NCBI GenBank assembly: GCA_008360955.1
Contig: LUCM01002333.1
Span: forward strand, 214,227 to 278,226
Reading direction: 5' to 3'
Length of the DNA stretch: 64,000 nucleotides
Origin: Fasciolopsis buskii
Lineage: Eukaryota; Platyhelminthes; Trematoda; Plagiorchiida; Fasciolidae
Shown here in pieces: positions 1,336-53,697 of this stretch. Within the stretch, counting starts at the first letter, position 1, and each line of letters starts with the position of its first letter. Below the pieces are notes generated by a model, which was not told where the DNA came from, did no database searches, and worked only from the letters and a program-made list of their open reading frames with translations. Position numbers and translations under genes: made by a program.

Positions 1336-1447
1336 GACGAAGGCACTGCTGATGATTCCTAACAAAGATGAAACAGCTGCACAGTGTTCCCATGGTTTCT
1401 TTAGGATGAGTTGAGCGATGATATCACATGGTGAATTATTTCATGAA
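1336..1447 (+). mobile_element. Family 1 SINE body, inverted partial copy
   Basis: This stretch repeats the hammerhead and tail of the preceding element in the opposite orientation, so 1001-1139 and 1336-1447 form a large inverted repeat around the tRNA-like head. The hammerhead parts are GCACTG (1343-1348), CTGATGA (1349-1355), GAAA (1370-1373) and CAGCTGCA (1374-1381). The triplet next to the cut has changed from GUA to GCA, which removes the essential U, and stem II has a mismatch, so this copy should be inactive. It could be a separate insertion or an inverted dimer formed during retrotransposition. Confidence 0.7.
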
Positions 1448-2054
1448 AAAAGAAACAAACCAACCATTGCCAGTTGCCGAAATCATTGGGTCTGAGATGT
1501 ATATCTTGGCAGCAAAATTCATTGTAACACAACAATAACTGGTAGGAGTAATTTTGGATGAAATGATTTTTTTATTTGGTGTGCCAGAATAAAGTAGGGA
1601 AGTGTCAGAAATTTGAATGATTCATTTAGAAGACACCACTTGGAGATTCATTCAGGCTAAAAAAAACAAAACTACTCAGTGACATCCTATTCAAATGGGC
1701 TAGTTCAAAATAGGGAGTTATGACAAAAAACAGCACCATCGATTAACCGTTAATAATGAGCTGTTGTTTTGATCACAAAACATCATATATGCCAGAAGCC
1801 AATTTGATCGATCTAAAATTGTCGCCCGATTTTTTTCTACGATTGAAAAGTACCTTGTGTAATTTTTCCTCAAATACGAATTAAGGGTCGGACAGGATGT
1901 CAGGAAGTCGTTCTAGATGCGGCAAAGTGAGCGCAATTAGGGACGAGATTAACTCGGGATTCGGCGTCCGTTTCCTTGGTTCCTCATTGCCCCGGGCATT
2001 TGCAACAAGAATTTGTCACGTTGTTTCAAATTTGTCAATGACTACTATTCCTGA
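1448..2054. other. No gene recognised
   Basis: AT-rich, with no long frame and no recognised repeat. Confidence 0.5.
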
Positions 2055-8500: not shown

Positions 8501-9065
8501 TTTTATTGTGAATGATATAATATTAATAACACAGCGATTTCATTACACTTTCGATTCCAACTTTGTTCGGTGAGTTACAAATCTCGTCATATTGGGACAT
8601 CCAGCTATAATGTTCCGAGACCGGGAATCGAGGATTTTTCGCTTCACATCTACGCATCTTTACAAAGTCTGATTCGATTTGATTCGCTTAGTTCCTTTCG
8701 TAAAAACCAATTTTTCCGAACCGTGTTAAAATAAGGACAGAATTGTTTCTCCAAAGATTCCATGACATGGAGTGCGCTCACTTTAAAGATCTCGAACAAT
8801 TTAAGAATGTGAACCAAAAGTAATGACGACGTCTTGTTTGTTTTGCGGCATCTATGAAACAGGCCAACTGAACAACTAAGTAGATTCAGTGTTTCGTTTC
8901 CAATGAACAAAACGCGGACGGGTAGGGGGTGATTAAAAAAAATATCCGGAATAATCCATATTTTGTTCATTTTTCTGGATCGTCCCTGTAAAATGTGCAT
9001 TTTGGATAAGTTGCACGAACGGAATTAATACAGAGAAAAGCATTGAAAATTACCCTATAAATACA
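2592..9065. other. Long stretch without a recognised gene
   Basis: Contains only short frames. The longest are a 116-codon minus-strand frame at 8650-9000 and a 111-codon minus-strand frame at 6517-6852, neither with a recognisable domain. A minus-strand frame at 6021-6269 is Cys-rich but unrecognised. The only clear repeat is a CA microsatellite at about 3809-3836. Likely intron or intergenic. Confidence 0.5.
3809..3836. repeat. (AC)n microsatellite
   Basis: About 14 dinucleotide units with one interruption (GC for AC). Confidence 0.9.
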
Positions 9066-9148
9066 TAGAAACATAGATAGAAAGATAGATTGATTGAGTG
9101 ATAAATAGATAGATAGATAGATAAATAGATAGGTAGATAGATTGATAA

Positions 9149-9190
<42 letters not shown>

Positions 9191-9211
9191 TGATTGATTG
9201 ATTGATTGATA

Positions 9212-9242
<31 letters not shown>

Positions 9243-9244
9243 AA

Positions 9245-9313
<69 letters not shown>

Positions 9314-9385
9314 NNNNNNNNNNNNNNNNNNNNNNNNNNNNNNNNNNNNNNNNNNNNNNNNNNNNNNNNNNNNNNNNNNNAGATG

Positions 9386-9428
<43 letters not shown>

Positions 9429-9444
9429 GGATAGATAGATAGAT
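9066..9444. repeat. GATA/GATT tetranucleotide microsatellite
   Basis: Long runs of GATA interrupted by GATT and AAAT/GGAT variants, with an assembly gap inside. The apparent open frames through it, reading Tyr-Leu-Ser-Ile repeats, are only translations of the tetranucleotide and not genes. Confidence 0.97.
9314..9380. other. Assembly gap (67 N)
   Basis: A run of 67 N inside the GATA array. The true repeat length is unknown. Confidence 1.
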
Positions 9445-9696
9445 CGCCACAATCTCCTCTGTAGCGTCAGCAGTGTGCTTCGAAGCTGTTCGTCGAAGAG
9501 TCCACAGAGGAATCACAGTCGTGATTCGTTGATACTTTTTCATCATTTGGGCTGATTCAACCTTAGGAACGAGGGGAGAATGCCCCGGACTATATATATG
9601 CGAATATAGAAATTGTAAGTAGTATCTGGATGAGTGAACAAAAATTGCCCGGGAGTACACGACCAGTATCGCGGTTATTGTATAAATATATATATA
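9445..9696 (-). mobile_element. TA-flanked hammerhead element (family 2), truncated copy
   Basis: Homologous to 32979-33322 in the same orientation. It has the hairpin half (GAATCAC at 9510-9516 pairing with GTGATTC at 9521-9527), then a GAACGAGG-containing segment, a short TA run near 9590, the segment AGTAGTATCTGGAT, and the 3' half of the hammerhead on the minus strand at about 9645-9680. The CTGACGA half of the ribozyme is missing and a TA microsatellite begins exactly there. GAAACCGGTC has become GATACTGGTC. The copy is therefore inactive. Confidence 0.75.
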
Positions 9697-13640: not shown

Positions 13641-15580
13641 GTGGCTCGCAATTAAATCAATAATAGCCTTAAATCCCAACCAATAGGGTTATGGTATTTG
13701 CTTGGAAATTTGCCTGATTTTGACATATCAGGTACAGTCGTAGAAAGAAAAAAAAAGAATCACGAAATAGTTAGGAGTCAAAAAGTAACAATTAAAATCT
13801 GACAATAAAGACCTTGCTTTAAGGTGCGTTTTAAAAAGCTATCTCACACAGATACGACTTGGTCCGATCGGTAAAGATTGCAGCCCGCGGTAGTTCCTAG
13901 TTACCAGGTAAACGATAATCGCCTTATGTCAATGATTTCTCGAATCATATTCGGAAAAGATTCAAAAACATTTAGGCAATTCACGATTCTTTGGTTGAAA
14001 AAAAACGTGGGCAGTAGGCTGTTGGTTGCTGATCGGATAACAAGATAATAAATATCGAACTGAAAGACAAATTTAGCACTGGAAGCTGAAAAAGCCACGC
14101 TGTAAGCATAGTCGTCAGTTAACGTCATCTTCAAAAAGCGGTCGCTAGCCGGAGACGAACACACGAATACGTGAACTATGAAAAAAATCAGTTGCCCTCT
14201 GTAGAACATCGTGACTGTAGACAGAAGAAAATGGTGAATTTTCGCCTTTTAAAGACAGTTGTCGAACTCAAATTAAATCTCGCGAAAGATCTGACTGGCC
14301 GAAGATCGAATATCATGGGTTAGAAATGATACATGCTGTTTGTCTCTCAGTACTGTTGATCGTTTTACTGTACTCAAGAATGTAGACAAAGAAACGCTTC
14401 CATTTCATGTTCGACGAAGACGAAACGTTCTGAATGCGAAGTATGACAGCATCCAAGAAGTAAACGAGCTCTATTAGGTGAAATGAGAATAGTCATCAAG
14501 CGTAGAATTACCGCGGTTCAATAACCTCCAAAGTAAAATAACGACGGACCAAACGGGATGGAACTTTGCAATCGTGGTCAGTGATCGAGTTGTATGCGCA
14601 AACTTTCAGATTTAACGATCTTCCGAACAAATTCCCCGAAGAAATGTTTGTTCATGCAATGGCCAAAAAATATCGAAAATCGATAATGTGTGAGTGTGAT
14701 TGAAAATCAAATGAAGTCAGAATATAATACATTGACGTTTCTCTTCGGAAATGAACTTTCGAGCGAATCCCACTTAACTTTTTTTTCGGGGGTCTGGTCA
14801 AAGTTCTCACCAGTTGTCTTTGCTTGCAAACATCCAATTGCGGATAGAAAAAATAGGCCTGGTTTTTTTTAAAGTTCGACGAAAACGCAAGCAGCCTACA
14901 CGACTCTACATTCTTTGCCCTTTATGAGCTCTTATTATTTTGCTGGGCTAATTGTTTAGTTACGGCAGAAATTATGTCATGGTGATCGGGAAGATTCGTT
15001 GTTTCTGATCAAAAGCACAGCATGGTGGAAAGATCAAACTTTTTTTTAAATGTACTTGAAGCACTCTGAGTTTAGGGTGGTCCACTAAGTGTGCTATGTG
15101 GTTAGCCATGCGAAAATTCGTTTGGATATCTTTTTTTCAGAATTGTGTTCCCACTTTTCCGGTTTCCAGCGCCATACCGGCTGACGGTTGTCTGACTTTG
15201 TGACAGATGGCTAGGCAACACAATTTTCCGTGGTTTATAAATCAAACATCGATCATGGCAATAGGTCAAGTGGGAAACCTGGTCAATATGTTTTCATGGT
15301 CTCACCGAGTGAGGAATTCATTTTGAGTAGTAAGAGATTTCACGTTCAACTCCCAGATGAGTCGTACAGATGAGTGGCAAACTTGTTCCATCCAATAGTA
15401 AAATCCGTCTCACCGGGGCCGCACATTGTCAACCAAAGTTAGTAGTTGCCGAGACCGGCCATGGATGGCTGCAAACGTTTAACGGGTTGCTAAGACCCAA
15501 TAAAAATAACGTCGAAGCTAACACGTGTTCAGCCTAAGATCACTCATCCACCGTTCGTCTTTTATCGTTTACATCCTGTA
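13641..15580. other. Mostly no gene recognised
   Basis: One frame of interest (13901-14209, listed separately). The remainder holds short frames only. 15109-15154 is the true source of the 46 bases misplaced at 11259. Confidence 0.45.
13901..14209 (-). CDS. Possible small secreted protein or first exon
   Basis: A 102-codon minus-strand frame starting at an ATG. Residues 1-20 look like a signal peptide: a short start with one Arg, then a hydrophobic run LIFFIVHVFV and CSSPAS as a possible cleavage region. The rest is unrecognised and Phe-rich. No splice or promoter evidence supports it, so it may be chance. Confidence 0.2.
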   Translation of the reverse strand: MFYRGQLIFFIVHVFVCSSPASDRFLKMTLTDDYAYSVAFSASSAKFVFQFDIYYLVIRSATNSLLPTFFFNQRIVNCLNVFESFPNMIREIIDIRRLSFTW

Positions 15581-15735
15581 TTAATGAAATAACAATGCAT
15601 ATCGTTTTTCAGGAAGGGTGCGGCAGCCAACAGAGGGCTACCAAGTGGGGAAGTTGACCGGCGGTTGCGGGGATTCGAGCCGGTGATTTTCACGTGCAAA
15701 TCCCACGAGCTTATCCGTTCGGCCACTGCCGGCCA
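15581..15735 (-). mobile_element. SINE family 3 (Ser/Leu tRNA-like head), copy a
   Basis: On the minus strand: A-box-like TGGCCGAACGGATAAG, B-box-like GGCTCGAATCC, a conserved body (GGTCAACTTCCCCACTTGG and a segment ending in CTTCCTGAAAA), and a tail ATTGTTATTTCATTAA. Five copies in the window share this layout. It carries no hammerhead core boxes. Confidence 0.85.
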
Positions 15736-16020
15736 AGTTGCAACCAACCGAATATGTATTGTACATATATTAAGAATCAAATTGGGTAAACTCTTCACGT
15801 CGAGAATAGAAACCCATTGGAGTAGGACGAAAACGACACAATGATCACAACACAAGAGATTTTCTGTACTCCAATCGCGTTTGAGGGACGAAAAAAGTGT
15901 TCCCGATAAATGATAAAGCATAGACGTTTACAAATGTGAACATCGATACTGAGTTTCATTTGAGCACTAGTATGTTTTTTCTTGATTGTCGACAGCATGT
16001 GTGTAGATGAGAGTGATCAA

Positions 16021-16110
16021 ATTTCCCCCGGAAACACATTACCGATTTCGCGGTCATTGCCGTTCTTCAGGTAAAATGATCCGGTACTCTACCGTCCAGT
16101 CACTTCTCTG
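16021..16110 (-). mobile_element. Divergent family 2 hammerhead fragment
   Basis: Aligns on the minus strand with the hammerhead of 24541-24602. It has CTGAAGA (16070-16064), which still fits CUGANGA; a stem II CGG/CCG inside 16063-16050; GAAA (16049-16046); ATCGGTA, giving a three-pair loopless stem III and a GUA cleavage triplet; then GTTTCCGGGGG. The pair next to the core is A with C, and stem I is poorly matched, so activity is unlikely. No TA microsatellite flanks it. It probably represents an older subfamily. Confidence 0.6.
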
Positions 16111-17424: not shown

Positions 17425-18577
17425 ACGAAATGTGCATGCGTGCGAATCAAGCTGAGTTTCTTCCCGGTCGCGGTTGTATTGATCAATTTTGTTCTCTGTT
17501 CCATCTAGAAGAGATGTTTAGTTTAATCAATCGTATAGTCCACTGGGGTAACAACTCTTGGCAAAATGTCCTGGTGGAGTGTATTTCACCTACCCAATCT
17601 CTACTTGCGAACAACCAAGAACGAGTACATCCTTTCGTCCGAGTTCATCAAGAAAAGCTATTGGTCAACAGGATTTCTTCTTTTCACATTTGCGGTTCAT
17701 TTTTTTGATGGATATTTATGAAAATAGCTCGTTGCTTGTGTGCTATTGGTGGGATTGATATTTGCTCGGACAGGAAGCTGTCTGACATAGAATATGCGAA
17801 CGATTTCACGCTTCTGAATGAAGATCCAAGTACATTTCAGATTGTCCTCGAGCATCTGAAAGAAAATATGCGCGTGCTAAGGGTGCATGTTCCACTCTCG
17901 AATTGCAAAACGCTGTTACCAGACTGGACTGGTTAAAAGTAGAACCTTAATTCCGCAGGAAAGCACACTTAGTTACGTAGACACTTGGATCTCATCTGGT
18001 CACATGTCGGATGAAGTGTGTTCGCGATTACAGAAGGCGCGCTTAGCATTCATCATTTTGAGGCATCTGTGGCGTCGACGTGAAATCCGATTATCGAGCA
18101 AGTTTCTAGTATACCCACTAGTTGTTAGGACGATATTACTCTGCAGTTCCAAAGCATGGCAGTCAACGGCAGTGGAAACGCGAAGGTTTTTCATGTTTGA
18201 ACACTATTGTCTTCTAAATATTAGTAGAATTTGGTAGGAGAAATCATCGAGCAACTCAGGGGCTAGATGTAAGATACCGGGCCCAGCGTTTCCGTCTTTA
18301 GAGCAGACATTGAATTAAAATAGGTTAAGATGGTCGGTCTCTAGTTTTATGCATGTCTGCACGAAGAGTGCTTCACACTACACCGTTCTGGGATACAGAT
18401 AATGGTTGGAAGGTGGTTCGAAGTGGCCAGCTGATGAAATGGGGAAAATGTACAGAAAGTTCAACTTGTGGACTGGCTGGTGCAGGTGTAATTCGACTAC
18501 CCCGCTGGATTCAAAAGACTGCCGAAACGATGAACAGAGACAACAGAATTGATACGGCTCACACTTGCAATACGTGA
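17425..18577 (+). pseudogene. RTE-type LINE reverse transcriptase relic
   Basis: Order of recognisable blocks, in shifting + frames: NQAEFLPGRGCIDQF (17440-17490; family form is a NQAGFRPGRG block); a damaged QGCPLSPF-like block and FLMDI near 17650-17720; the catalytic region EYANDFTLLNEDPS at about 17787-17830, where the YADD motif is YAND; then CKTLLPDW, LWRRREIRLS and SKAWQSTAVETRR (about 18060-18190). The C-terminal block (ARRVL, GWKKV-like and GQLMKW) is at 18355-18480. Several frameshifts and stops break it, and one catalytic Asp is Asn, so it is inactive. Confidence 0.85.
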
Positions 18578-19685: not shown

Positions 19686-19838
19686 TTAGTGGCCAAGTGG
19701 ATGAGGTCGAGGCGTTTGGATGTGAAGGTTGCGGACTGGAATCCTCCCACTGCCGGTCAACTTCCCCACTTGGCAGCCCTCTGCTGGCCGCGACCCGCTT
19801 CTTGAAAATTAATGTACATTGTTGTTTTATTAACAAAG
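19686..19838 (+). mobile_element. SINE family 3, copy b
   Basis: Plus-strand copy with A-box-like GTGGCCAAGTGGATGAGG and B-box-like GGACTGGAATCC. The shared body is GGTCAACTTCCCCACTTGG and CCTCTGCTGGC, and the tail is ACATTGTTGTTTTATTAAC. Confidence 0.85.
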
Positions 19839-20745
19839 AAATTAATAGACAAAAGATAAAATCTTTTGTAGCCCAAAAGACGTGATAATTAAAAATTTTC
19901 ACCGAGTTGCAAACTAAGTGCGTTCTGTCTTCATCCATCATAGGCACAAATATTGCCCAGATAATAGTCACCAATTCGCAAACGAATTGCCAAGCGACAG
20001 TTGCCCGTTTTTCTTTCCAGTTCTCGGGCTAAATGACGAAGCAAAATAGAAAAACAGACAAGTTCGCGGAAACCGGAATTGAACGAAAATTTACATTCAC
20101 GACAAACTATAATTTGCAGTCGAAATTGAGTCAAAAGATATTTTTTTATACCATTATAATAATGGGTGGAATCAAATTTTGTTACGCTTTGCACTTTCTG
20201 TAGGAATATATATATATATACATTACAAACACCATCTCAATAACGGTCGATGAAGGTTGTGTTTCATAATATTTGTGCATGACAAATCAAACATCGAATG
20301 TCAATCTTTTTTTCAAATCAGAATATATGGAAAAGGAATGAATCAATTTGGTTGTTCCTCATTTTGCTTGAGTGTCCCGTGTACACATTCGGATACATTT
20401 CCAACCGATCGTCAGATCGAGAGGGAGAGAGTTTTATTCATACAGCTTAGAAGCGATTAAATTTCTGTATGGTTTGGGCAAATTTTCCCAAAATTTTTTC
20501 GCTGATTAACTGATTAATTGATGAACTCGGATAAATTTATTATGCCGGACAATTGCTGCAAATGAAGGCTAACTGTCTAGGATGCCGGTTGATGGTAGCT
20601 AAAAAAAAGCTTTTCATTTAAAAGGTATTATTCATCCAATTGTACTATTTGGTTCACAAAAAGGGCACTTGCCATTTCGGGAGGAATGTCCCCAACTTAT
20701 TGTCTCGCTGGGATTATAGGTCCTATTGCTTTGTGCTTGTACGGA

Positions 20746-22445: not shown

Positions 22446-24190
22446 GTAAGGTGCATTATCAGTTCCTTGTAATTTCTCAATTTCGGTGTCCGATCGCTTC
22501 CCCGTAAACGCAACCTTCGCGATTCATCGGTGACTGGAATTTTAGGATCACTCAGGTTTAAATGTTATTTATTGTTAATAGGTTAAAAGTATTGTATCCA
22601 TATTCGGCAAACACGTAGTGTCCAAGCTTGAAAAGTTCATTCATGTGACCAAACCGTCACAAACAAGCATTTTACTTAACAGGACTTGTTGCCGGACTAT
22701 GATTTGCCCGGTAACAGGAGAAGTTTGACAGCAACCAGCCATCCCGGTTTACAAGGTGTCACATGAATTGGAATTACTGAGTTCAATCTTTCTTTTTCCC
22801 GATTACCTGACTGAAAAACTTCGATTTTGGCCTAATTGTTTGGTCATATCTCTACCATTCAATTTTACTCAGCTCAGTGCATGTACAAGCAAGGAATTCG
22901 CGTGGTTGTTTTATCAATTTTACTATCTCCGTCTGTGCTACTCACTATGGTTTTAGGTTTACTTACCCTCTAATAAACTAATGCTAATGCTACACTTTAC
23001 GATTGTAATGTACCCAACGATCTCGCTCAATTCAGCTAACTACGAGGGGTTAGTTTCACTGCATTTCAAAATGTTCTGGAACTTTTATTGATCGGCAAAC
23101 ATTTCATTCAGTACGCTCGGACAGCTCTGATCCCCAATTTTTTACGAACTGTCGAGAATCTGAGCCTCCCCAATCGCAGCAGTCCCGGTTTTTCTAAGCA
23201 ACTACAATGTCCATGGTCCAAAAGCCAAATTCATTCTCAATTCACATTAGAAATTCGACTTCGGTGACTCGATTTTTCGTGTAATTCATCACTAACCATT
23301 GGAGCTATATTTCCGTACCAGTGCTCATTTAATTTTGCTTATATTTAATTGGAAATACGTCCGGAATGATCCGTGACCAGTCAAACATTTCCCGATGGAA
23401 AGATGACAAATCTCGACCAGAATCCAAATAAGGTGCCTACGACAAAGAACACATTAGTCTAGGCTTTCGTTCCAAACATTTTAGTCACAAATAGTGACGA
23501 ATTTCGTTATCTGGGCATGTTGAATGAATCAACGTATCTTCACATGGGGCCATACGAGTCGTGCAAAAACCCTCCTGTTTTGGCTTTTGTCTTACATGAA
23601 CGTTCATCGCAGTGCATGATCCAACAACCGAACAAGATAGAGAATAAAATAGGTTCATTATATCATAACACAATGTATTTCAAATTGTGCAGCAAAAAAG
23701 ATATGCCAGATGATACGTTATTTGAAGACTTTAAATTATAGAAGGTACAGCTTGATGGGGAGTGTCCGCAAAGACTTTACGTCCCAATTACCTCCGGTGA
23801 CCCTAATAAAGACATGTTTACAATCTATTATAAATTTAAAATTACACTGGTGTGCGAGACCAGAAATCGGATTTCGAAATCGGTAAGTTAAACTTCAGAA
23901 GCCCGCAATCCAAGTGATTTGACATACTGGTTTGACATACGGTAATATCATCGCTAATTGGCCGAGATTCGCGTGTTTGTTTGGATCAATCCTGGATAGG
24001 TTTCACTTCAGACAAGACTAATCAGACATGACCGCCCCCATTTGTCCGGTTCAGCATGCTCTGTGGGGGATTCAACGAGTTGTGGCTGAATGAAAGAAAT
24101 ACAAATGCAAATATTTACCTCTCTATTCTGCTGCCCACTTGGGAGAAAATTGCTCAGATGACATTTGTTACGTGAGTTTCCGCAATACCT

Positions 24191-24211
24191 ATATATATAT
24201 ATATATATATA
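24191..24211. repeat. (TA)n microsatellite
   Basis: About ten TA units. It precedes a segment (24212-24290) that matches, reversed, the last 30 bases of the window beyond the family 2 copy there (TTTGAC and GGTTTGGATC), so it may mark the outer part of the same element. Confidence 0.85.
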
Positions 24212-24289
24212 TTTAGAGTTGAGAAGGCGTACACTGAGTTGATACGTTTATCGTGATGTTTAGATCCAAACTAGGAGTCGTTGTCAAAC

Positions 24290-24665
24290 GTGAATATATA
24301 TATATATATATATATGTACATATATCGATTTCGTGGCATCAGGAGTGTGCATGGAAGCTGTTCGTCGAAGACTCCACAGAAGAACCACAAATGTGGTTCG
24401 TTGATGATTCTTTGTCAGTTGGACTGTTCTGTGGACTCTTAGACGAAGAGCTTCCATGCATAATCTTGTCACCACAAATTCGATTCTGGTTAGACATACC
24501 AATTTGGAGTGTACAAGCATGTGGATGTTTGGAAAAGAGAGCACCGAGTATGCATACCTGACGAGCGACAATAATTGCGAAACCGGTCGTGTGCTCCCGG
24601 GCAAATTTTGTTCAATCATCCAGATACTACTTACTGCATATATATATATATGTATATATATAAAT
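24290..24665 (+). mobile_element. TA-flanked hammerhead element (family 2), intact-ribozyme copy
   Basis: Bounded by TA runs at 24293-24325 and 24640-24662. The left half (24340-24460) is palindromic: 24349-24381 and 24427-24459 are near-perfect reverse complements, around an inner hairpin GAACCACA/TGTGGTTC (24382-24399). A linker containing GTGGATGTTTGGA (shared with 33322-33265 on the minus strand) leads to a complete hammerhead (24541-24602). The segment CAATCATCCAGATACTACTT and the second TA run follow. No protein is encoded. Size and layout fit a non-autonomous retrozyme-like or Penelope-terminal-repeat-like element; which one is undecided. Confidence 0.8.
24541..24602 (+). ncRNA. Hammerhead ribozyme, type I, intact core
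   Basis: GCATAC (24552-24557), core CTGACGA (24558-24564), stem II GCGA/TTGC with a six-base loop (24565-24578), core GAAA (24579-24582), CCGGTC (24583-24588), GTGTGC (24589-24594). Stem I pairs GCATAC with GTGTGC over six positions, including one U-G. Stem III is the loopless palindrome ACCGGU. The cleavage triplet is GUC, so the predicted cut is after 24588. The essential G10.1-C11.1 pair is present. CCGAG upstream and CCCGG downstream could extend stem I. All conserved core bases are present, so cleavage is predicted, probably as a dimer or co-transcriptionally given the short stem III. Confidence 0.88.
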
Positions 24666-25100
24666 TAATTGTTCCACTCATAGGGCAGCAGGACAATCCG
24701 TGAGGAGGTCAACTAACCCACTGGAGATCGGTGACTGAGTACTCAAACAATAATTCTTCCGGATAGAGTTAGACATCCCAGGTACTCAGTAGAATTCTCC
24801 ACTAGAGACGCAGATTAGCATACAGTCGCATGCTTGGTGACCCAACCGCGGTTGGTTTGAAATCAGGGTACAAGCATCTCTCTAGGCTGAGTACAAGTGA
24901 CTAATCAACCCAATTAGGAATGCGTTGGGCATTTCCATTTGTTGACACCCTTTACTGTGAGCACCGCCACGAGGCGATACATGTATAACTCAGTCAGCAG
25001 AGGCTACTTCAGACCCCAGTCAACTGCGAGCATTTAGAGAAGTGTCCAGGATCAGTGGTCGACTAGGAGTTTGGACAATTCCGAGTAGTTTCGAAGAAAA
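24666..25100. other. Unclassified non-coding block next to family 2 copy
   Basis: Directly follows the TA run. GC content is higher than in the neighbours, no long frame exists, and words such as CGCCACGAGGCG are locally palindromic. It could be the remainder of a larger transposon, but no second copy was found in the window. Confidence 0.35.
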
Positions 25101-28211: not shown

Positions 28212-28556
28212 GCATTCGTCGTACTTAGGCTACCTGCAGAGAAGTCATCTATCAGTTGGGGTCGATTGGTGTGCGCTAGCAGCCCGTGGCCTTGCAAATC
28301 ACTGACGGATAGGTGCAAAATCATGTGGTGAAGTTCAACAAACCGTTTAGAGCCTGCCCGGTAACGTGATGGTTAAGGCGTTTGACTCAGAATCGTTCGT
28401 CCTTGTTTGAGTTCGCGTCCCAGTTCGGGCGCGGTGGATATGCACTGCTCATGATGATTCCTAACAAGGATGAAACAGCTGTACAGTGCTAGTGCTTCCA
28501 TGGTTTCAGCGTGGCGAGTTGAGCGATGATATCACATGGTGAATTATTTCATGAAA
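28212..28556 (+). mobile_element. tRNA-derived SINE with hammerhead (family 1), copy 2
   Basis: 5' extension at 28212-28350 (matches 1226-1335 reversed); tRNA-like head from 28351 with GCCCGGTAACGTGATGG, loop CTCAGAA and B-box-like GAGTTCGCGTCCC; hammerhead body 28442-28489; tail to CATGAAAT at 28556. This is the longest colinear copy and shows that the tRNA head and ribozyme belong to one unit. Confidence 0.85.
28442..28489 (+). ncRNA. Hammerhead ribozyme, broken in box I
   Basis: GCACTG (28442-28447), then CTCATGATGA where copy 1 has CTGATGA, i.e. three extra bases CAT at 28450-28452. Stem II TCCT/AGGA follows (within 28458-28471), then GAAA (28472-28475), CAGCTGTA (28476-28483) and CAGTGC (28484-28489). 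Stem I, stem III palindrome and GUA triplet are perfect, but the split core box should abolish cleavage. The 10.1-11.1 pair is U with U. Confidence 0.7.
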
Positions 28557-30462
28557 TTATTAAACGTTAATGAATATGTAGTGGGTTGCTTTTCATCGCA
28601 TTCATCGAACATGAGTGCAGTGGAAGCGATGGACTTCGTAAGCGCAAGCACCTACTAAACGGGGTGAAACTACTAAATTTGTCCACAGAACTTGGAAATA
28701 CGTCGGATCACATAGGGGCTCAGCAGATCTACCGAGTTATGGGAATGAGCGATTCCAACACGATTGTATAGAACCAACAACAATAGGCCGGGTAATTGTA
28801 AATGACCTAATCATTTCTGTATAAGGCATTCATCAACCAGTCCTACACCTTTTTCTGGGAACAATTAGAGCCGTGGATATTTTTAATTGTCGGTCAACCT
28901 AGACATGTTGTATGAGGCCAAAGATTCTCGAGTGTCAACTCCGTCTGTCCATATTCGGATTTTCGTTGACTACAGCAAATTGGCTGATACAGTTTGCATC
29001 AATCACCTAGGATATTCTGCATATCATGTTCACCCGAACATATGGTGAAAAATTCCTGCACAAGTTACAATCGCACGTCTGACTTCGTGTAAAACACTGT
29101 CAACGGTTTCTCTCCTTGACTACACCATCAGGGAATTTCGCTTTTATCAAACTGTTCGTGGAAGGAGACGGGTGAGGAACTCAGCGCAGTTCCACGTTCA
29201 ATGCAGTAAAATTGTATTTTGCATTCAATGGTTCAGTTTTGAAATTCCTTAGGGAAGTAGACACATTGTCCTCGGTAATCTATTCATTCTGATACATCTG
29301 TGACACATTCGACGACCATCTGACGGCTCGGCAGTTATCCTTCCGAACTATTAAGAACCATCAAAATTGGCTTAGTTACAACCTAATTCACACCACTGGT
29401 CGTGCAGACATTTAATATTGCTTATCTAGTGTCTTCAAATAGATCCATATGTATCCGAAAACGACTTTCTCTAGGCATTTTGCCTCTGACATCAGAGCGC
29501 AAAAACGGTTAGTCCGCTTACTTCACCTCGCATGACCTAGCACACCAGAAAAGAAAACACACGTCATCGTAGCCGCCAGAAGCAAGGGACCTCCATCGGG
29601 TTTGTCATAATCATAATCGTCCAGTTGCGCTGTACATGCATACGCATACATAAGCATACCAATCATCTCTAACCCTAGGCTTTCATTCTCGTAGATTGCT
29701 TTGATAGGTTTGAAAATCTCGAAATTACGCCCAATCTTTGTGACGAAACACTTCGCAAAACTGGTGCTAGTGAGTTACATGAGATAGTTTGCTAGGTTCA
29801 GGCTTTCGAAAGACAAAGATGAAACTGAAATGGAGTCGAATTTTGATCACTGTTCATCCATTCCAAGCATGATGAAAACTCGTCATAATTCTTAATGCTG
29901 TCCAAGAATTCGGGGAGCTGTGTTCACAGTTGAGACTTGGTAATTGAGTCAGATGCTTTCCTGAACCATAGATGAAACAAATTATTGCAGTTTCTGTTGC
30001 TCATCCTAGGAAAATTATGAGTAAACTTGCTTTTAACTAAAACTATCTTCAGACCTTCATTAAAGCACAGAATATTTTGACATTCCAGCGATCATCCTGA
30101 CAGTGTCAAACGTTTTACTATGCTTTTAACCCATCTCGTTAATCCGAATAGTAGCCGAGTAACAATCTCATTACCGGTCTTTGTAACGATTCGATGAGAG
30201 ATTCGAATCTACGATTAACGTGCGAGAACCTGCCACATTCTGAATCGTTCCGTCTTTCCAGAACGAATGTGGACTTGAACCATTTTGCACACACTGGCCA
30301 TAGTCACTACCGAGCTGTGAATTTTACTATCGAATCTACATCCGTCTTCTCTGCTCGTAAACGGTTTTCATGCCACTTATGTGTAAGCATACAAACCGAT
30401 ATCTGTTTTGGTGAAATGTGATTGAAATATTACACAAATATTTGGATGAATTTATAGTTAAA
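28557..30462. other. No gene recognised
   Basis: Short frames only; no repeat identified. Confidence 0.45.
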
Positions 30463-30520: not shown

Positions 30521-32718
30521 CCGACTGTCACTAATGGGATTGAAACGACCGAGTGTCGTCAGACTCTTTACCATAACTAACCTAATGAGATCTTATCTGG
30601 TTTTATATCATTCTAAGTTTCCGCGTCTTCGTTGCTGGTCTCCTCTTCGAGTAGTGGACTCAAATGACTACGAGGGATGCCTCATTCCACTAAACTCGTT
30701 CATAGACCACGCCATAAGAAAACCATTCGTGATCATTCTGAACAGTTGGTACATTATTATGGATTTTTCGTTGTTCTAATTCGTTTGATTGATGATAACA
30801 GATCAAACATTTGTGGGGATTTTGATTTTATCACCCACTAATCGATTTCTTTTTCGCGCAGACCAGGAGTGGTTTACGCGTAGGAATTTTCCCCGTAAAT
30901 GAAGTCCCTCTCAAATAAATCGCAATATTTCATCATTCATGTAAGACACAGGCAAATTGTACATTCGTCTGAATGGAATGTTGCTATGGTTTTAGTCGCG
31001 TTGTAATCCGTCCCACTGCGCAACGATGTGGAACAGGAAATTTTCCTATTAGTAGCTTCAATCAATTGCATATTGGTAATGTGCAACGTGACTAGTCTTC
31101 AAAATCCCTTGCGATTTATTCTCGGCTCATCTGCCGCCAAAATTAATTTACAGTGATGGAAATTCCCGACCGTGACAAATACGTCAGGTATGGATTCATT
31201 TTTAATGAGTTTTTTCTTTTTTTTGCAGTCGTGCTCCGGAAAATTGTCGCATTCCCTTGATTGAATTGATCTCGTGTACAAATGATAATTATTGATTTAC
31301 TCCTTTTTAACGAGGATATTAGATGGGAGAATACAACTTGAAGACTACGTTTTGAAGTGCAGTTCAACTTGCTCTACACTTAGGTCGACTAGTTGCATTT
31401 GTTCACGCAGTGGTACATTTAGCTTTGTTAGTATATTATATGTACATATATACAACGACAAGTAGACCTAATTTGGAACGAAACGTCACAACATACATTA
31501 TAACTCAGTGTATACCTTCTAACCTCTAATATATGCATATATGTAAGTATATATATATACATATATAATACAAGGGCTTGAAAACAACCATGGTATCAGT
31601 GCAAAAACATGCAAGTGGAACTTCAAAATAGGAGGAAAAACAAAGGAGGGGGTGAGAATTAATAAATGATAAAAAATCGACTGTTTGTTTTGCCTTTTTA
31701 CCCCATACACTTTGTGCGTTTGTGGTGATTTTTGGATTATTTTTCAAGTGGCTGAGCTCTACAGACAGACCACAAAGCATTCGGACAGTTGCGTTCGGTT
31801 GGGAGCCCTATCTCTCGGTGTTTCCAACTAACGGGAACAATCCACGCCTCTTGGGCCCCAACCATGTTAAGTTTTCACTTATCTCTAACACCTCACAATT
31901 GAACTGACCAGTGATCGAAATGGATATTAGTTACTTGGTGCATTGTTCACACGATGGGTTACCATTTCGATGAAATCCTGTACAAAATCTGTTCAAAATG
32001 CAAGCAATTTTATCATTTTAAACCCGTCACATCCGGATATGGAAGACTAAGTTGGCTGAAAACTGTACACCAGTTTCTAACGTTCGTGTCCATCTGACTA
32101 GCCATCAAGTGGACGTATGAGACCTTTGGAAATATCAACCAGCAACCAGGGAGAGCTATCAAATACGAAAATTTGGAAACCGGTCGGGATATCCTATGGC
32201 AAATTGCAACTTAATGTCACGTTAACGATTATACACACACGTGAACAACAACAGAAGCGTACCAACGTTTTCGTATTTCCTATGGAATTATCGTTTTTTT
32301 TTCTAAGCCTTTGTGTGATGCACCTTCATGGTAATGTGAACATAAAAAACGCACTCCTGACCGGGCTTAATTGTGAGTTAAGTTCCTGACATTAATTTTA
32401 GCCCACGAGGTGTCTCGTTTCTCTTAATGCAATCGAATGTAGAATATTGAGGTCACAGTCTATCAGAACATCACTTTCTGTGATGAAAAACTAATAACTG
32501 CACAAACGAATCATTTTAAATACCTATTTCGTTTCCATGGTTTCGTCATTGATTATCAGTTTGCAAATAAAAGATTTTGAACGAATTAGAGGAGTCCTGC
32601 AGTTTGGAACAAAATATCACCTTTAAAAATTCCGCCTTTGAATTATTCATCATGCTGAGAGAGCTGTTGTTTATATGCTGACCTAAACCTGGCATTATGT
32701 TTCGTCTTTCACTTCTTT
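30521..32718. other. No gene recognised
   Basis: TA-rich tracts near 31435-31450 and 31535-31568; short frames only. Confidence 0.45.
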
Positions 32719-32879
32719 TATTAATGAAATAAAAATGTACATCGTAATTCAAGAAGGGGGCAGCAGCCAACAGATGGCTGCCAAGTGGAGAAGTTGACTG
32801 GCGGTGGAAGTATTCGAATCCGCGACCTTCAAGTCCGAATCCCGCGACGACCTTAACCGTCTGGTCACCGCCGGCCAGA
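32719..32879 (-). mobile_element. SINE family 3, copy c
   Basis: Minus-strand copy: head with GGTGACCAGACGGTTAAGG and GGATTCGAATACTTCC-type B box, body CACTTGGCAGCC, tail TTTATTTCATTAATAAAAG. Confidence 0.85.
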
Positions 32880-32978: not shown

Positions 32979-33322
32979 ATATATATATATGTATTGTTCT
33001 CATCAGAATCGAATCTGTAGCATCCGGAGTGTGCATGGAAGCTCTTCATCAAAGAGTCGATAGAAGAACTAGAACTGTGTTTCGTTGATAATTCTTTGAC
33101 AGTTGGGCTGAGCCAACCTTAGGAACGAGGGCAGAATGTCCCAGAATATTTATATGTATATGTAGAAGCAGCAAGTAGTATCTGGATGCGTGAATAACAT
33201 GTGCTAGGGAGCACACGACCGGTTTCGCGGTTATTGTCGCTCGTCAGGTATGCGTACCCGGTGCTCTCTTGTCCAAACATCCACATACGTGTACACGTAT
33301 ATATATATATGTATATATATAA
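32979..33322 (-). mobile_element. TA-flanked hammerhead element (family 2), complete simple copy
   Basis: The clearest unit, about 340 bases between TA runs at 32979-32991 and 33297-33322. On the minus strand the order is TA run, GTATGTGGATGTTTGGAC, hammerhead (33265-33205), CAGATACTACTTGCTGC, a short TA-rich stretch near 33150, TGGGACATTCTGCCC, GGTTGGCTCAGCCC, the degraded hairpin half, GCTTCCATGCACACTCC and the second TA run. No open frame. It is a non-autonomous RNA element; the copying machinery is not in the window. Confidence 0.82.
33205..33265 (-). ncRNA. Hammerhead ribozyme, type I, intact core
   Basis: Minus strand: GCATAC (33253-33248), CTGACGA (33247-33241), stem II GCG/CGC with inner loop (33240-33227), GAAA (33226-33223), CCGGTC (33222-33217), GTGTGC (33216-33211). 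The predicted cut is after the base complementary to 33217. Compared with the copy at 24541, the third stem II pair is G-C instead of G-U, a change that keeps the pairing. All core bases and the GUC triplet are present. Confidence 0.88.
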
Positions 33323-37572: not shown

Positions 37573-37728
37573 GCCTGGCGGTAGCCAAGCGGATAACATC
37601 CTGGCGTTTGGACATGAAGATCGCCGTTCCGAATCCTCCCATCGCCAATCAACGTCTCCAGTCAGGATCCCGTTTTGGCCGGAGCTCTCTTCCTGAAAAA
37701 TGGTTTGCAATGTTATTTCATTAATAAA
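37573..37728 (+). mobile_element. SINE family 3, copy d
   Basis: Head GGTAGCCAAGCGGATAAC, B-box-like CCGAATCC, a shortened body with CGTCTCCAGTC, and tail GCAATGTTATTTCATTAAT. The middle of the body diverges most of the five copies. Confidence 0.8.
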
Positions 37729-40638
37729 ATGAATTAAATGATAAAAAGGAAGAAAGAGATCCACCACGGGGAAGCAGATCACGTTAGCAAAAGAAAAATT
37801 CCTATTTATCCAGCAATGAGGCGGTTATGAACCAGAAATCCATTTTCCATGCATAAAAAGGCATAGCAGTTTTCCAGTTTGCTGGGTTAGTTTCCTTCGT
37901 CTGTGTTGGGACAGATATTTGTTCCGTTCTGTTTCCAAGTGTTAACCCTTAGCTACCAGTGAATACGTTTTCAGAGTTTTCACAACTTATGATTCCCGAT
38001 ACCTACGTTTCAGTCGTTCTCTCCATGGTTAACAACGCAACATTGGTTCAAGGCAACGTTGTGTTTTGCGAAAATTGTACGCAAATATTCCGGTGGCATG
38101 GAATTTTCATTTTAATTGAACGAAAAACAGAGGATTCAGTTGGATTGCCCAATTACTAGGCGGAATGAGAACGCGTTCTTCAAGCAGCAACCATCCCGAA
38201 CTAATCAATGAAACTAGTGGAGGTACCCACCACTGCAAAACTGGTTTATCTCTCCTAGGAATCCCCAACCGTGTGCAAACACATTCATTTCAATGAGAAA
38301 TAAACACGAGTTGAATGGATTTGAGTCGAACACAAGAAGAAGCAAGGGCAATGTTAAATGCTTTCAAGTAAGACTGAGGTAGCTATGCAATTCGTGATCC
38401 TCCCGTGATTCATGCCGATGAGTTAGTCATTGATAAAACATGGCAATAAAATTTCCCACTTCCATCACATACTCCAATGGCGACGACCTTGTGTAGCTAT
38501 CTTTCGCTTTGATTATTTCCAGTAATTTCAAAGGCATAAATGTCTGCGTCGGAGCGTCGTCCATCGGTGGACCGAGTGTGAACCTAATGAACATCATCGG
38601 CCATTTAGATTGAACAAAATGGATACATTTTGGACTAATATCAAACTGCACAATGGTAGAAGTCTATGCTTCCATCGGGAGATATATGCAATTAAAAGTA
38701 CTGTCGACTATGTTAGCCAAAAGGCTTGAAGTATCTGGTGTCAAATGAATTAGTTCACTGAAATGTTTTGCTATAAAGGGTATCCGGATCTCCTCATGTG
38801 TAATAAATTTTCCGATCACATTCCAAAAAACAAAAGCAAATGTGCGAGATCCGTCTGTTCATCTTGGTTGTTTTTTAAATGTCTTAAAAATGTTCATTTT
38901 AAACGCAAGTAGCTTTTCGTATTAGTGGATCCATAGCAGTGGTAACACGTTGTCCTATGATAGATGATTTCAATCAAACCATACCCATTTCTTATCCTAT
39001 TAGGTCTTTTTTGACCGTTTCATTAGTGTGATCAAAGTGCATTTTATTCTCAGGAGAACGGATAGATTGTTAATTTCGGAGACAGAAAGCTAACTTGAAA
39101 TACAAAAACAACCAGAATGATCGCGTGGCCAAGTGTTCGCCAGATCCGCTGTTGTCAGGCTGAAACAGCAACATATTCGTAAATGTTAAGAAATGAACGG
39201 AATCCGGTTATGTCTTCCTAGAAGAACTGACATTTGTATCTACACACAATCGTATTCTGTTGTGTGAATTCGGACTGGATGGAATCCTTGGTTTTCGAGC
39301 GTTGATCTATGTCTTTGGAAGAGGATGTAAGTCGTTTGTCACCGAATGAAACAAACAAGACAACTAGCATAAAGTGACGGATTATTCGACCTGACACTGG
39401 CATGTAAGATTTGTTTTCCACATTTCGTGACAGGTGACTGTGCACGCATGATCCTGACTATTCACAGCCAATCTCTCGTCAAGATTGCACAAACACAGAC
39501 TAATACAAATTGTTTTCGGGCTTGATTGAACGAATTCTGACTATGACTGTCGCAATTAGGTTGATGCGTCGAACAATTTTGCCCATTTTTACTTGTTTAA
39601 TTTGTTCTAACGGGTCACTATTGATCGATAACGGCAATTGATTTGCCGAGTAGAACTCAATAGATTCAATAGGTCTTCAAAAATATTTGACACGTATCAA
39701 TGTGTATTTAATTTTTGTATTTTATGTTACTCACTTTCCATTCAGCCACGTGTTCAGTTAGGAGTAGTCATGTTGTGCTCAACATGTCACGTGACGATTG
39801 CAGTGCGTTTAGAAACTGACTGTCTTATCTCACTGTCATACGTCGGCTCGGCACAGGTACATGACCCTTATGAACAGTGTTCACATGTATAGTCTATCGC
39901 AAACACAGAGCAAACGATTCATTCGGCCACATTTTACACTCTTTGCAAAACGAGTTATGACGAACCAGTGAACGGAGCATCTGAGGATGAAAACTGACCG
40001 TGATTTCTGACACCTCATAGATGATTCAGGGAAATTAACTAAATCCCCTCTTGTTGTGCGTATCAGTTAATTCTAACCTTAGTTTCTTTGCAATTCGTAA
40101 CGAATTTCCAAAACAATCCTAAAGTTATGATACCACGAATGGAGTCATCCATACTCCCGGAGAGAAAACACGTTACCAAATAAAGTGCAACTGCCCAAAT
40201 TCTTTGAACATGACCGTTTCGGACACAACGTACAGATTCCACAAAAACTAACTCGGCTATTATTCGACCAGTCGAGCCGAGATGCTTCATCGAAATGTGT
40301 TTGGCAATTTGCTATCTACTCACAATACATACCCCCTCAAGTTCGGTGATCGAATGGTATTGGCCACAGTAAGTTCTTGTGATATAACTTGCTGGCGTAG
40401 AAAGTAAAACAGAGTGCATTTGCTTTTATAGTGTTTGGCTTTTGGTAGGAGTCACCCAATGGAACAAAGGCTTTAGTGCCTCATTAACTAGAGAGCGATC
40501 CACTGGTTGGTTGATCGATAGGAAAATTCTGCTCTGACAGACAAAGTCCCAAAAGTTCACCGGGGCGAATGCCATGTGATTGGGCAATTTGAATGTGTAA
40601 TCAATAACCCTTAAATAAAATGTCCGAATACCATTCGG
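37729..40638. other. No gene recognised
   Basis: Short frames only; no repeat identified. Confidence 0.45.
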
Positions 40639-43700: not shown

Positions 43701-46700
43701 ACGACTTTGTTCCCATGATGAAATCTATTCAGTCTAGTATTTTGCCCTAAAGTAAGAGGCACCCACGAGGTTGAAAATGAGGAGTCACATACGAAACTTT
43801 GTCGTCCAGAAACAGGTATTCTTGATAACAAACTTCGTTCCAAAGATTCGGGCATTTTTCTTGTTCACGAAATGACTATTTATCTTCACACAAGCTCGAA
43901 TTCTGATAAGTTGTTAGATTTCATGGGTCAACAATTGTAATTTTCACCATCTGATGAATTTGAAGCACGACAAACTGTTTGAGTCGGTAAGAACGCGAAT
44001 CACAAATTTGTTTCTCATGTTCCATTGATCGACAAATGTTTCCGGGACGTGACGAATTGAAGGGATGCAGTTCACAACCCTCCTTTCGCTTCGCGCCCTA
44101 AGGTTTAGTAAAAACCATACCATATGCGTTTACAACGAACAGTACAGAAATACAGTTGCACAGTTCGTTCGCCATGGACGTACTGTGAACCTTCCCGGCT
44201 TGTTTTGCACAGCTCAAAAGCCATCTTTGTCATCGGAAGTTGCACTATTAACTTTTTTTGTTACAAAATCATAAGCCTAACCGTTTTTTTTCTTGGTGTT
44301 GTTTCTTACAAGAATTAGACAATTATGTATGGAAAAGTCTAGGCAATACGAATCAATAATACACATCGTCACTGGCGCAATGTAAATCCCAAGATTTGAG
44401 CATCGCGAGTCGCACCATGTATTGTACAAAAATCTGACCTACCTTGGGAATGCTAACTTGATGCCCTTCTTTGCCTGACAAGTTGGGTTACATAACCCGA
44501 ATTTTAAAACTGTCCCTTTATCCGAAAATGGGAATTCCACTTCGATGCAGTTCATCCCAAATTCAATGATGCAAGCTGCAATCGAACCGATAATCTGCCG
44601 CTTGTCGGGTTCTACTCCAGCTCTTGGCGTTGAGTTGCGGACTTGTGGTGCCCAAATAGGTGGGCCCATTCTCTACACATTTCGGTTCCCCATGTGGCCT
44701 CAAAACAAATGAACGTTTTCTCCTAGCATTAAACGACTGCGATACGCTTTGCTTGCATCTAATTGCAGAAGAGGAAAGGAGCGTGAAAGAAACATATAGA
44801 CCATTTTGGTTCCTTGTATGCCTAGAAAGTCGTAAGGTGTTACTATATACACGAACCAAAGTACAGATCAACAACCGATGAACTACGACAGTTTTATTTC
44901 TATACGATGAACAACTTTATTGGATATGGGCATTAAGGGAATTGATTTTTCATCCATACAATAATTCGTGCAGTATCTAGATATCGTTTGTAATCAAGAA
45001 ATCGCGGAATCGTTACAAGAATGTCAAATAGGTCCCAGGATTTGTCAGCGGTGCATGTGGATCCGGCCGGAACGGACAGGCAAATCCGTGAGAAACGACT
45101 GTGGGTCAAGAGTGAAGCTTTGCTAAAAATAGACGTTTACCATTCCTCGTTTTCCAACTAACGGTTAACATGGAAAATAACTCTACAACTGGCAATCTAG
45201 TGACATTAAATCCGTGCGGAGAAATAGGAGATAAGCTCTCCTGTTCATTGGGCACCGATCGGAATGTGTAAGTCAGCATGTAGTTCCATGTGATCACGTT
45301 AGATCGGTTGCATGAAAAGACCGAGATGAACCGTGTCCTTTTATGGTCTTATAAGCCAGTGCGTTCAGTCACCATTTCGGCATAGAGACCGAATAGCCAT
45401 GAGTGAGCTGATTCAGCATTGGTTTTTCGAATAGATATTATCAGGTATCATCTAAATCCCATGGAAAGAGAATTAAATGTCAAGAAATCAGCTCATCTGC
45501 TCCCTCGTATCTCATACCGAATTGCAAAAATGTCGGATTATCCCCGAAAAGCGTGGTACAGTTTGTTGGATATCTAAACCTCACCCAATTGAGCATCGAA
45601 ATGGGCTGATCAAAAGAAGAGAACCAGGCCGATCGAAGCTGATGGAATTTGGACAAAAAAATTCCGGACAAATTTGCAAGAAAAATGAGACCAAATTTTT
45701 TTTAAATTGAGTGAACATGATAACAATAATGGCGAAAAATCGATAACACAACCGATTATGTTCATTTGTGCATATTTTCTTATTTAAACTCTTGCCAATC
45801 ACCAACTTAAACCGGATCCTGGAAATTCTTGTAGTACTTAAAATTGATGAATGAATGATAAATCTCAAATGTCATCCACGGAACGGGGCTTAGAAGATCA
45901 GTTCTATTCACTCTTCTTCTGTTTACGTCATTTACTCCAACTGATGTTTTCAAGATGCTCACGTTTGATCCTGTGTAGTAACGTACGTCGATTGCATACA
46001 CTCATCTACTGAACTTACCAAATATGGCATTCAAACATACTATTTGTTGACCCCTGGTAATGTGTTCCCACGGAGGCATTGGTTACCACGGTTACCAAGT
46101 ACACGTAACTCATAAGTTTCCGTGGCTGGGTGAAAATGACAAATAGTGTAAAAGCAAGTTCAGGGAAAAATCAATCAACTGACGGCTTAAAATGATCAAA
46201 ATTGTCGAAACTTCGGTCAGTATCAAAGTTTACGTATTGGGTATTCATTTATTAATCATGTCGCCCAATGTAGTTCAAATGTGGTACAAAAGAACTAAAC
46301 TGTTAGATCGGCGAATTCGATCCATCACCGCTTATTCAGCTCCTTACCCGACTCTCAGACCGGGCAGTGGAACGTATGTCCAGCCAGATTGCATGAGTGA
46401 CGTCACATGAAGGCATGAAGACCGAGAAAGAATCGATTCCATCATTTTTAGCCCAAGCAAATTTAAAAATTATTAATTAGATCAATGAAGACGAGATAAA
46501 AGACAGTACTTTTAGTCGAAATTCATCTAGGTTTTGGCAACAAAAAGCCCTCAAGCATAGTTATTAAGAATACATATATGGCTGTGATTTTTTTATGGAC
46601 TCTTCAGATGTGAAAGTCTATGCACAGCGCCGATGACAAGAAGGAGATCCCGGTGACGAATGCCCATCCGAAGTGTACAAGTATAAGTATGTTTGGATGA

Positions 46701-47338
46701 GGAATATCCGGCATTGGTGCACGGCATTCGGCAAACTTTATAAACCACCAAACCGGTCATCTGATCTTGGGAAGGACTTTACTACTCATCCAGATACCAG
46801 TAATATTCAGTGTACGGGTATCATGTGTATACCTGCATTGTCAGCCAGAAATCACAACCGAATATCAGCTTGGCTAAAGATATGACGACCATTTTGGAGA
46901 TTTGTTCAATCAAATGTACTCGTCTTCCTACATCTTTTGAATTTTGAAAATAGACAGAAAGTTCGATCGTAACATATACCAGAGATTTCCTCGATACGTA
47001 CCACCAATATCGACGGAATACATCTCACCAAGGGCAAGCATTATGAAAGCAACTGTGAATTTCCTGTTTCACAGCCGTTTATGAATTGCTTTCTATTCAA
47101 CGCAAACCGTGAGATTGGCAGTCTAATATACACAATTGGATGTTCAAAAAGAAGAATGGTTACCGAATGTATAACTTCAAAGATTGTGTATTTTTCTATT
47201 TGTTAACCATCTACGCCTTAGGTTGCGAAAACATAATCTGTTCCGCCATTAGTCGTAACGGCTTAATCCAATAAAAACCTGCATCACTAATACTTTCGAC
47301 GTTGTGTTCAACAGGCCAAACGGCTTCAAACCTGGCCG
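40721..47338. other. Long stretch without a recognised gene
   Basis: Short frames only; a GT microsatellite at 41969-41993. No domain or dispersed repeat was recognised. Confidence 0.45.
41969..41993. repeat. (GT)n microsatellite
   Basis: About 12 GT units with one GC interruption. Confidence 0.9.
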
Positions 47339-52825: not shown

Positions 52826-53697
52826 GATACGGTCACATTGTTCCCAAAACGGATTTGGGCCGTGCAACCACAGTGATCTATGCACTGTTCGGGATTCCCC
52901 TGGTCTTGTTGTGCGTGGCAAATCTGGGCGGATGTTTGGCCACGTGTGTACGTCTGATCTATCGTCAGTCATGCTTACGAATCTATCAAAGACAGCGTCG
53001 TAAACGTATGCTTGAACGAATGACCACGGAAAACAATCGACAGAACAATGGAGACAGTGAGATAACCAATCAGTCCAAACAAAAATTGACATCCGACGTT
53101 GAAACTGGAACCTCATCGACAGCTTATCGATCGAACAAAGTGGCTCATTGTAAACTGGCTGCAATTGATGAAGTGGACAACGCGTGGAATACGGGCGGTG
53201 TGCACGCGAAAAGTCAACTCAGCGGTCCCCAATCGCGGACACCGACGAGCCATATTCGACTCACAAGACCGTCAGCCACATTTGATAAAACTGCACAGCA
53301 AATTTTGCACACAATTACCACTTCGCAATCGATCCTATCACGAAATGTTCTTCGTTCTTCGCGAAAAAATGAAATTCGAGTCCCAATATGGTTGACTATG
53401 CTCATTTTTTGCATTTACATCACAGTTGGAGCTATTATATTTGCCAACTGGGAAATGTGGAGTATTCTCCAATCGGCCTATTTCATTTTCATCACTCTAT
53501 CCACAATCGGGTTTGGTGATTTCGTGCCGGGCATACAAAACGATCAGTGGTACGAAGATTCAGTGAAACCGGTATTTTGTTGTTTCTATTTGCTTATCGG
53601 AATATCAATGGTGGCTATGTGTTTTACGTTGATGCAAGAAGAAGTACGAACAAAATTTCGAAAATTCGCTGAAAAAATTGGTCTATTAGACAATTGA
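52826..53697 (+). CDS. Two-pore-domain (K2P) potassium channel, last exon
   Basis: Subunit of a background potassium channel in the plasma membrane; K2P subunits pair to form one pore and set resting potential. The exon begins inside the first Gly codon of GYG in pore loop 1 (phase 1, after TTGCATTGCAG). It then encodes [14 protein letters not shown]2 with YALFGIPL, a basic and Ser/Thr-rich cytoplasmic loop of roughly 150 residues, M3 (about 53388-53450), pore loop 2 with TIGFGD (GFG at 53509-53517), M4 (about 53563-53634) and a C-terminal tail of only about 20 residues. The stop is at 53695-53697. A long M2-M3 loop with a tiny C-tail is the layout of vertebrate TRESK (KCNK18); many invertebrate TWK channels vary here too, so orthology is not claimed. 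M1 and most of P1 must lie in upstream exons that I could not find. Frame 52597-52825 upstream of the acceptor is intronic. Confidence 0.93.

Follow-up and report, generated by a model that had tools for sequence, protein, structure and literature searches.

A dispersed repeat of about 313 nt with a type I hammerhead motif, probably a retrozyme-like element, in the fluke Fasciolopsis buskii

A complete type I hammerhead motif lies at 24552-24594, on the forward strand of the 64-kb stretch of Fasciolopsis buskii DNA analysed here (the window). It belongs to a locus at 24.3-24.7 kb, labelled copy A, which is a rearranged and truncated member of a repeat family and in which a second module of the family, the tail, is present twice in opposite orientations. 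Stem I is formed by 24552-24557 and 24589-24594 (6 bp, GCAUAC/GUGUGC) and is followed by the core CUGACGA (24558-24564), by a 4-bp stem II (24565-24568 with 24575-24578, GCGA/UUGC, loop CAAUAA, the G10.1-C11.1 pair present) and by GAAA (24579-24582). Stem III consists of two pairs, A24582-U24587 and C24583-G24586, closed by a 2-nt loop inside ACCGGU. C17 is position 24588, and self-cleavage after it (24588/24589) is predicted. The CUGANGA ... GAAA ... NUH core, the three helices and the open ends in stem I are the features of type I, and core bases and helices lie where the earlier note had put them.

As a sequence motif, the hammerhead in copy A is real. A strict descriptor combining helices and core matched once in the window, in copy A, and in none of 400 windows simulated under a first-order Markov model; a second copy, B, failed it by one stem II mismatch. 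A looser core pattern matched twice against an expectation of 0.04, and none of 100 shuffles reached two matches. The covariance search proposed in the earlier note bore the motif out in part. Scanning 24100-24900 (801 bases) with cmscan gave a match to RF02275 Hammerhead_HH9 that covered all 77 positions of the model (30.9 bits, E 1.1e-5, or E 8.9e-4 when the whole 64-kb window was scanned). However, this score falls below the gathering score of 52, which is a database threshold and not a biochemical feature, and HH9 was listed instead of the type I model. At the default (gathering) thresholds of Rfam there were no hits across the whole window. HH9, which we take to represent amniote intronic ribozymes, also differs from the fluke motif in that the stem III region of the latter is five positions shorter and the motif sits in a repeat. 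Matches to MIR6027 and similar miRNA models in 24100-24900 scored far under their thresholds and were rejected; they are due to an inverted duplication and to TA runs at the locus.

Viral contigs contained neither a 20-base ribozyme pattern nor the core pattern. In bacterial and archaeal genomes the core pattern was found in 31 stretches, none with both stems complete. Two of these (L001 and L023) represent a single stretch, present on two contigs of one MAG. In the best of them stem I had 5 of its 6 pairs and stem II 2 of its 4, or each stem had 3, and Rfam found no hammerhead in the five that were searched. We treated all 31 as chance matches and not as relatives. By their description these collections do not include animal genomes, so they have no bearing on the distribution of the element.

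BLAST, together with a profile derived from B, C and D, recovered four clear family members (A, B, C and D) and two old, weak ones (E and k46) in the 64 kb. The small repeated element of the earlier note is therefore confirmed as a repeat by BLAST, by the profile and by alignment to a doubled copy B. Copy B (32990-33296, reverse strand) is a near-complete monomer of 307 nt with TA tracts at both ends. It carries a second complete hammerhead core (33211-33253, reverse, C17 at 33217), in which the outermost stem II pair is A/C; the looser core pattern spans 33247-33217 there. Copy C (63691-63935, forward) starts within stem I, runs from ribozyme to tail and has G12 changed. Copy D (9451-9682, reverse) is 5′-truncated within stem II, has GAAA changed and is likewise followed by the tail. 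It abuts a long tetranucleotide repeat (ATAG/AGAT, 9057-9444) that includes a run of N. Copy E (16000-16073, reverse, profile E 7e-8) is a decayed ribozyme module which kept CUGANGA and GAAA and lost the G10.1-C11.1 pair and half of stem I, with an A at the cut position. Copy k46 (46578-46801, forward) has the tail followed by a ribozyme remnant, in which no 5′ half is recognisable and G12 is changed; the profile matched it in two pieces (E 0.003 and 0.0004). Neither E nor k46 has a TA run nearby.

The core is complete in two of the six copies, A and B, which share an identical 6-bp stem I. Between them 2 of 43 ribozyme positions differ, against 19 of 108 elsewhere (p 0.04) or 14 of 88 when the TA-rich end is left out (p 0.09); on this comparison the ribozyme is only slightly less diverged than its surroundings. 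In copies A, B, C and E, 87.5 % of the cells pair, compared with 12.5 to 47.9 % after sliding the partner strand. Among these four copies 393 of 500 shuffles reached the observed covariation score, so covariation gives the helices no support.

Ribozyme and tail occur in both orders. The ribozyme precedes the tail in B, C and D, and the tail precedes the ribozyme in A and k46. In both A and k46, 53 nt separate the tail motif ATGCA from the GTGTACA that precedes the ribozyme; in copy B, counted the other way round, the two are 260 nt apart. The two orders thus close into a unit of 313 nt. A single BLAST piece of copy A (24427-24659, forward; 233 nt, 80.7 %, E 8e-56) spans the joint of a doubled copy B, as does k46 (about 62 %, E 5e-9, with permissive scoring and a chosen 451-nt stretch). 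The simplest reading of this phase is that the unit had circles, or multimers joined head to tail, as its ancestors. We rejected a tandem satellite array as a description of the window: none was found there, and no locus had two full units. The earlier note had equated the element with 24541-24602; the actual unit is far larger, and the copy A locus is rearranged.

The 5′ ends vary, being full in B, in stem I in C and in stem II in D, while the 3′ ends of these three copies lie within about 30 nt of each other in the tail. Ragged 5′ and clustered 3′ ends fit target-primed insertion with 5′ truncation. The clustered 3′ ends suit linear target-primed insertion and circles equally. Copy A is probably unable to release a unit alone, because only one ribozyme is present there, and the locus is more likely a relic with an intact ribozyme motif than a working element.

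The window holds 11 alternating TA runs of at least 10 nt, which merge into nine tracts. Ten of the runs (eight of the tracts) are inside spans of the element or of a further module, M3, the spans having been drawn by hand after the copies were seen. Of the 12 copy edges scored, six have a TA run no more than 30 nt away, compared with 1.1 % of random positions. The exceptions are the left edge of C (a mixed TA/CA stretch), the right edge of D (an ATCT repeat) and all four edges of E and k46. The TA may represent the insertion target, a product of insertion or a part of the unit, which also carries an internal TA-rich stretch. Copy A is indeed TA-flanked, as had been noted, by a run at its left edge (24294-24315) and by a tract at its right edge (24638-24662) made of two runs of at least 10 nt that lie one base apart. 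Such a boundary is thus typical of the younger copies. M3, identified by BLAST and profile, is a TA-bounded module adjoining the tail module (24216-24293, reverse strand). It adjoins the tail in copies A and C, the match after copy C (63966-64000) being partial at the right end of the window, and an M3-like stretch stands alone at 31457-31524.

The second conserved hairpin of the earlier note has to be divided in two. A long hairpin with 58-nt arms (24324-24381 / 24427-24484) exists, but only in copy A, where it results from the inverted duplication of the tail: the inverted tail module (24332-24427, reverse) pairs with 24427-24484, and the tail is present once in B, C and D. Of the four aligned tails, those of A, C and D contain an intact small 6-bp hairpin, in which one change is compensated; in B two of its pairs are broken.

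Folding predictions depended on the length of the piece. Isolated pieces of copies A (62 nt), B (69 nt) and C (61 nt) were not predicted to fold as hammerheads, and their stability was not unusual (z -0.51, -1.34 and +1.25, respectively). The ribozyme module of copy A (24509-24640, forward) is predicted to form a long imperfect stem I rod round the hammerhead, with a distal arm near its far end pairing 24522-24527 (TGGATG) with 24617-24622 (CATCCA). The stability of this 132-nt context relative to shuffles is modest (z -1.82 for A and -1.21 for B; -0.95 and -0.05 for the opposite strands). Forcing the hammerhead in the same context costs 3.6 kcal/mol (A) and 4.3 kcal/mol (B) relative to the free minimum; stem III is left uncounted there because its loop has just two bases.

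Within a monomer, the self-complementary helix III sequence ACCGGU has two closable pairs. In the free minimum of an AxB duplex, stem III has 6 bp, and both stem II helices and one of the two stem I helices are formed. The BxB minimum has stems II and III without stem I, and the AxA minimum is a different fold. The bare double-hammerhead pairs (-25.7, -28.1 and -26.9 kcal/mol for AxA, BxB and AxB) lie 11.5 to 20.2 kcal/mol above the free minima (-37.2, -48.3 and -42.4 kcal/mol), which include flanking pairs. Cleavage of this hammerhead as a dimer is predicted from the palindromic ACCGGU and from the precedent of weak helix III in newt and axolotl, and the folding supports it only in part. A circular fold of copy B was not unusual (z -0.73; 54 % paired, 57 % in shuffles).

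Coding in the unit is unlikely. Copy B has stops in all six frames, with a longest open stretch of 64 aa. Copies A and D each have one frame open throughout, and the frame of D had no match in a large protein set. The earlier observation that the element has no evident gene stands with this qualification. Neither a reverse transcriptase nor a GIY-YIG endonuclease was found with Pfam in the 10 window frames tested. A diverged repeat pair (17754-18327 / 58107-58693, 65 % alike by BLAST) has broken frames that by eye resemble the end of a LINE reverse transcriptase; checked as a possible partner enzyme, it gave no match above the Pfam cut-off in six open frames. The F. buski repeat survey lists annotated Penelope elements, 50 from the draft genome and 129 from the transcriptome (PMC6191129). 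Elsewhere in the window, the open frame 52558-53697 (forward) is an exon of a TWiK-type potassium channel with ion-channel domains. It is 100 % identical to a Fasciolopsis buskii protein over 76 % of its length, and the next match is a Fasciola gigantica protein (76 % identity). On this one gene, the window very probably comes from F. buskii, the giant intestinal fluke.

A second family of repeats in the window also carries hammerhead remnants. Its copies lie at 1133-995 (reverse), 1343-1449 (forward), 28230-28580 (forward) and 56510-56270 (reverse). They have a tRNA-like part, with A and B boxes recognised by eye, directly followed by a hammerhead remnant; no tRNA model matched the family. 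The stretches related to 1133-1089 span 28249-28564, 56277-56495 and 1343-1449. The first copy has a decayed type I hammerhead (1133-1089, reverse) which scored 25.1 bits with Hammerhead_1 (E 7.5e-4 in 491 bases, threshold 34), and the copy near 28.4 kb scored 15.6 bits with HH9. GUA replaces GUC in two copies, and U/U or U/C stands at the base of stem II. Two hammerhead families, this one and the 313-nt unit, therefore occur within the same 64 kb. A second SINE-like family, with a head that by eye resembles a serine tRNA, has five copies in the window by BLAST (15565-15735, 32705-32877 and 62746-62909, and inverted at 19689-19859 and 37577-37746). SINE counts in the F. buski survey are 0 for the genome and 2 for the transcriptome (PMC6191129).

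In our view the family is probably a retrozyme-like retroelement that is dispersed and non-autonomous, with a unit of about 313 nt and a type I hammerhead. What the sequence shows directly is the core of the ribozyme, the family of repeats, the phase of 313 nt, the pattern of ends and the TA association; the steps of the life cycle we infer. Each unit of a multimeric transcript would be cleaved once by its hammerhead, chiefly in ribozyme dimers held together by the palindromic ACCGGU of helix III, and ligation would turn the monomers into circles. An autonomous retroelement, most likely Penelope-like, would supply the enzyme that then copies the circles into AT-rich sites. Copy A would be a truncated, rearranged insertion that has kept an intact ribozyme motif.

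The strongest competing explanation is that the unit is the detached pseudo-LTR of a Penelope-like element and that no separate retrozyme exists, which we regard as possible but rather unlikely. Members of the Penelope-like class normally have a hammerhead, copies in partial tandem and AT-rich targets, and this reading would accommodate the partial-tandem and inverted arrangement of copy A, the TA association, and 5′ ends that are ragged while the 3′ ends fall within about 30 nt. The very short helix III recalls the minimal Penelope-like hammerheads described in PMC7761336, and the element studied in PMC11167929 is organised in tandem and cuts AT-rich DNA. However, unit and joint close at 313 nt with no coding insert at the two joint loci (A and k46). 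Helix III also keeps two pairs and stem I is predicted to be long, whereas PMC7761336 describes Penelope hammerheads without helix III or loop contacts.

It is quite unlikely that the family is an ordinary SINE-like or satellite-like repeat whose hammerhead is an inherited passenger without present function. The core is changed or missing in C, D and k46 and the helices are damaged in E, as expected of a passenger, and the ribozyme of A and B is only slightly less diverged than its surroundings. In these two copies, nevertheless, no core base is lost and the 6-bp stem I is identical, and ARAGORN detected no tRNA in the window, a weak test since the tRNA-like family of the window escapes both ARAGORN and Rfam. 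A chance resemblance to a hammerhead would agree with an HH9 score below the curated threshold and with monomer folds that do not favour the hammerhead, but it is extremely improbable given no strict match in 400 simulated windows, two diverged copies that keep the core, and no prokaryotic core-pattern stretch with both stems complete.

The retrozyme-like reading can be extended to a bolder scheme, which is speculative and in our view doubtful as a whole. A Penelope-type enzyme would take small circles of ribozyme-cut RNA as template and, beginning in a fixed region close to the tail, write them into TA tracts. The insertion step that the retrozyme cycle still lacks would then be recorded in the TA runs and the ragged 5′ ends. 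With a weak, palindromic helix III, monomer circles would remain uncut and dimers alone would cleave. TA-linked, 5′-truncated copies in different phases offer a place to test how the RNA returns to the genome. With this family, small repeats that carry a hammerhead are known from a fasciolid fluke as well as from blood flukes. Among the matches listed from the open-access literature, we saw no description of a hammerhead from Fasciolopsis or Fasciola. In their main texts, neither the F. buski genome paper nor one Fasciola hepatica transposon paper uses the word “ribozyme”. PMC8490949 mentions Fasciola a single time, for its lack of the W1 repeat on Southern blots.

Among known systems, Penelope-like elements and Terminons resemble the fluke unit in their partial-tandem copies, AT-rich targets and a hammerhead that is likely dimeric (PMC7761336, PMC11167929). 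Penelope-like elements carry minimal hammerheads and have been proposed as movers of retrozymes (PMC7761336). One studied Penelope-like element inserts in vitro without a need for hammerhead cleavage (PMC11167929). Unlike the fluke unit, at which no coding element was seen, the hammerheads described in these two sources accompany coding elements.

Sm-alpha and Sj-alpha share with the 313-nt unit a trematode host, small size, dispersed copies and a type I hammerhead. Two sources describe Sm-alpha-like schistosome repeats as related to tRNA-Gln (PMC2770079) and Sm-alpha as carrying the hammerhead (PMC8490949). No tRNA-like head was recognised in the 313-nt unit by ARAGORN, or by Rfam in 24100-24900, tests that the tRNA-like family of the window also escapes, and the unit does not look like Sm-alpha itself. 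The tRNA-like hammerhead family of the window is likely the counterpart of Sm-alpha, and a likelier one than the 313-nt unit.

The closest resemblance is to the metazoan non-LTR retrozymes, which PMC7229834 describes as repeats of 150-450 bp with type I hammerheads, whose multimeric transcripts are cut and then circularised. Platyhelminths are listed there among the phyla with analogous repeats, and newt and axolotl hammerheads with a weak helix III are reported to cleave best as dimers. The fluke unit falls within the size range at 313 nt, has a type I hammerhead, lacks evident coding, is in head-to-tail phase in two of its six copies and has a weak helix III from which dimer cleavage would be expected, as in axolotl (PMC7229834). 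The earlier note had held that the element matches none of Sm-alpha, Penelope-like elements and retrozymes; this is not upheld, since its size, hammerhead type, head-to-tail joint and lack of evident coding fit animal non-LTR retrozymes. The fluke copies differ from these in being dispersed, mostly truncated and associated with TA runs, with no full tandem seen in the window, and in the helix III sequence ACCGGU. Published retrozyme circles are described as highly self-paired, whereas the predicted circle of copy B, the one copy tested, is not (z -0.73). Since this feature is lacking in the copy tested, and full tandems, absence of coding and RNA circles are putative features of the unit, we use the term retrozyme-like and do not file the unit as a member of the class. 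In its workings the unit appears, from its sequence, to be most like a retrozyme.
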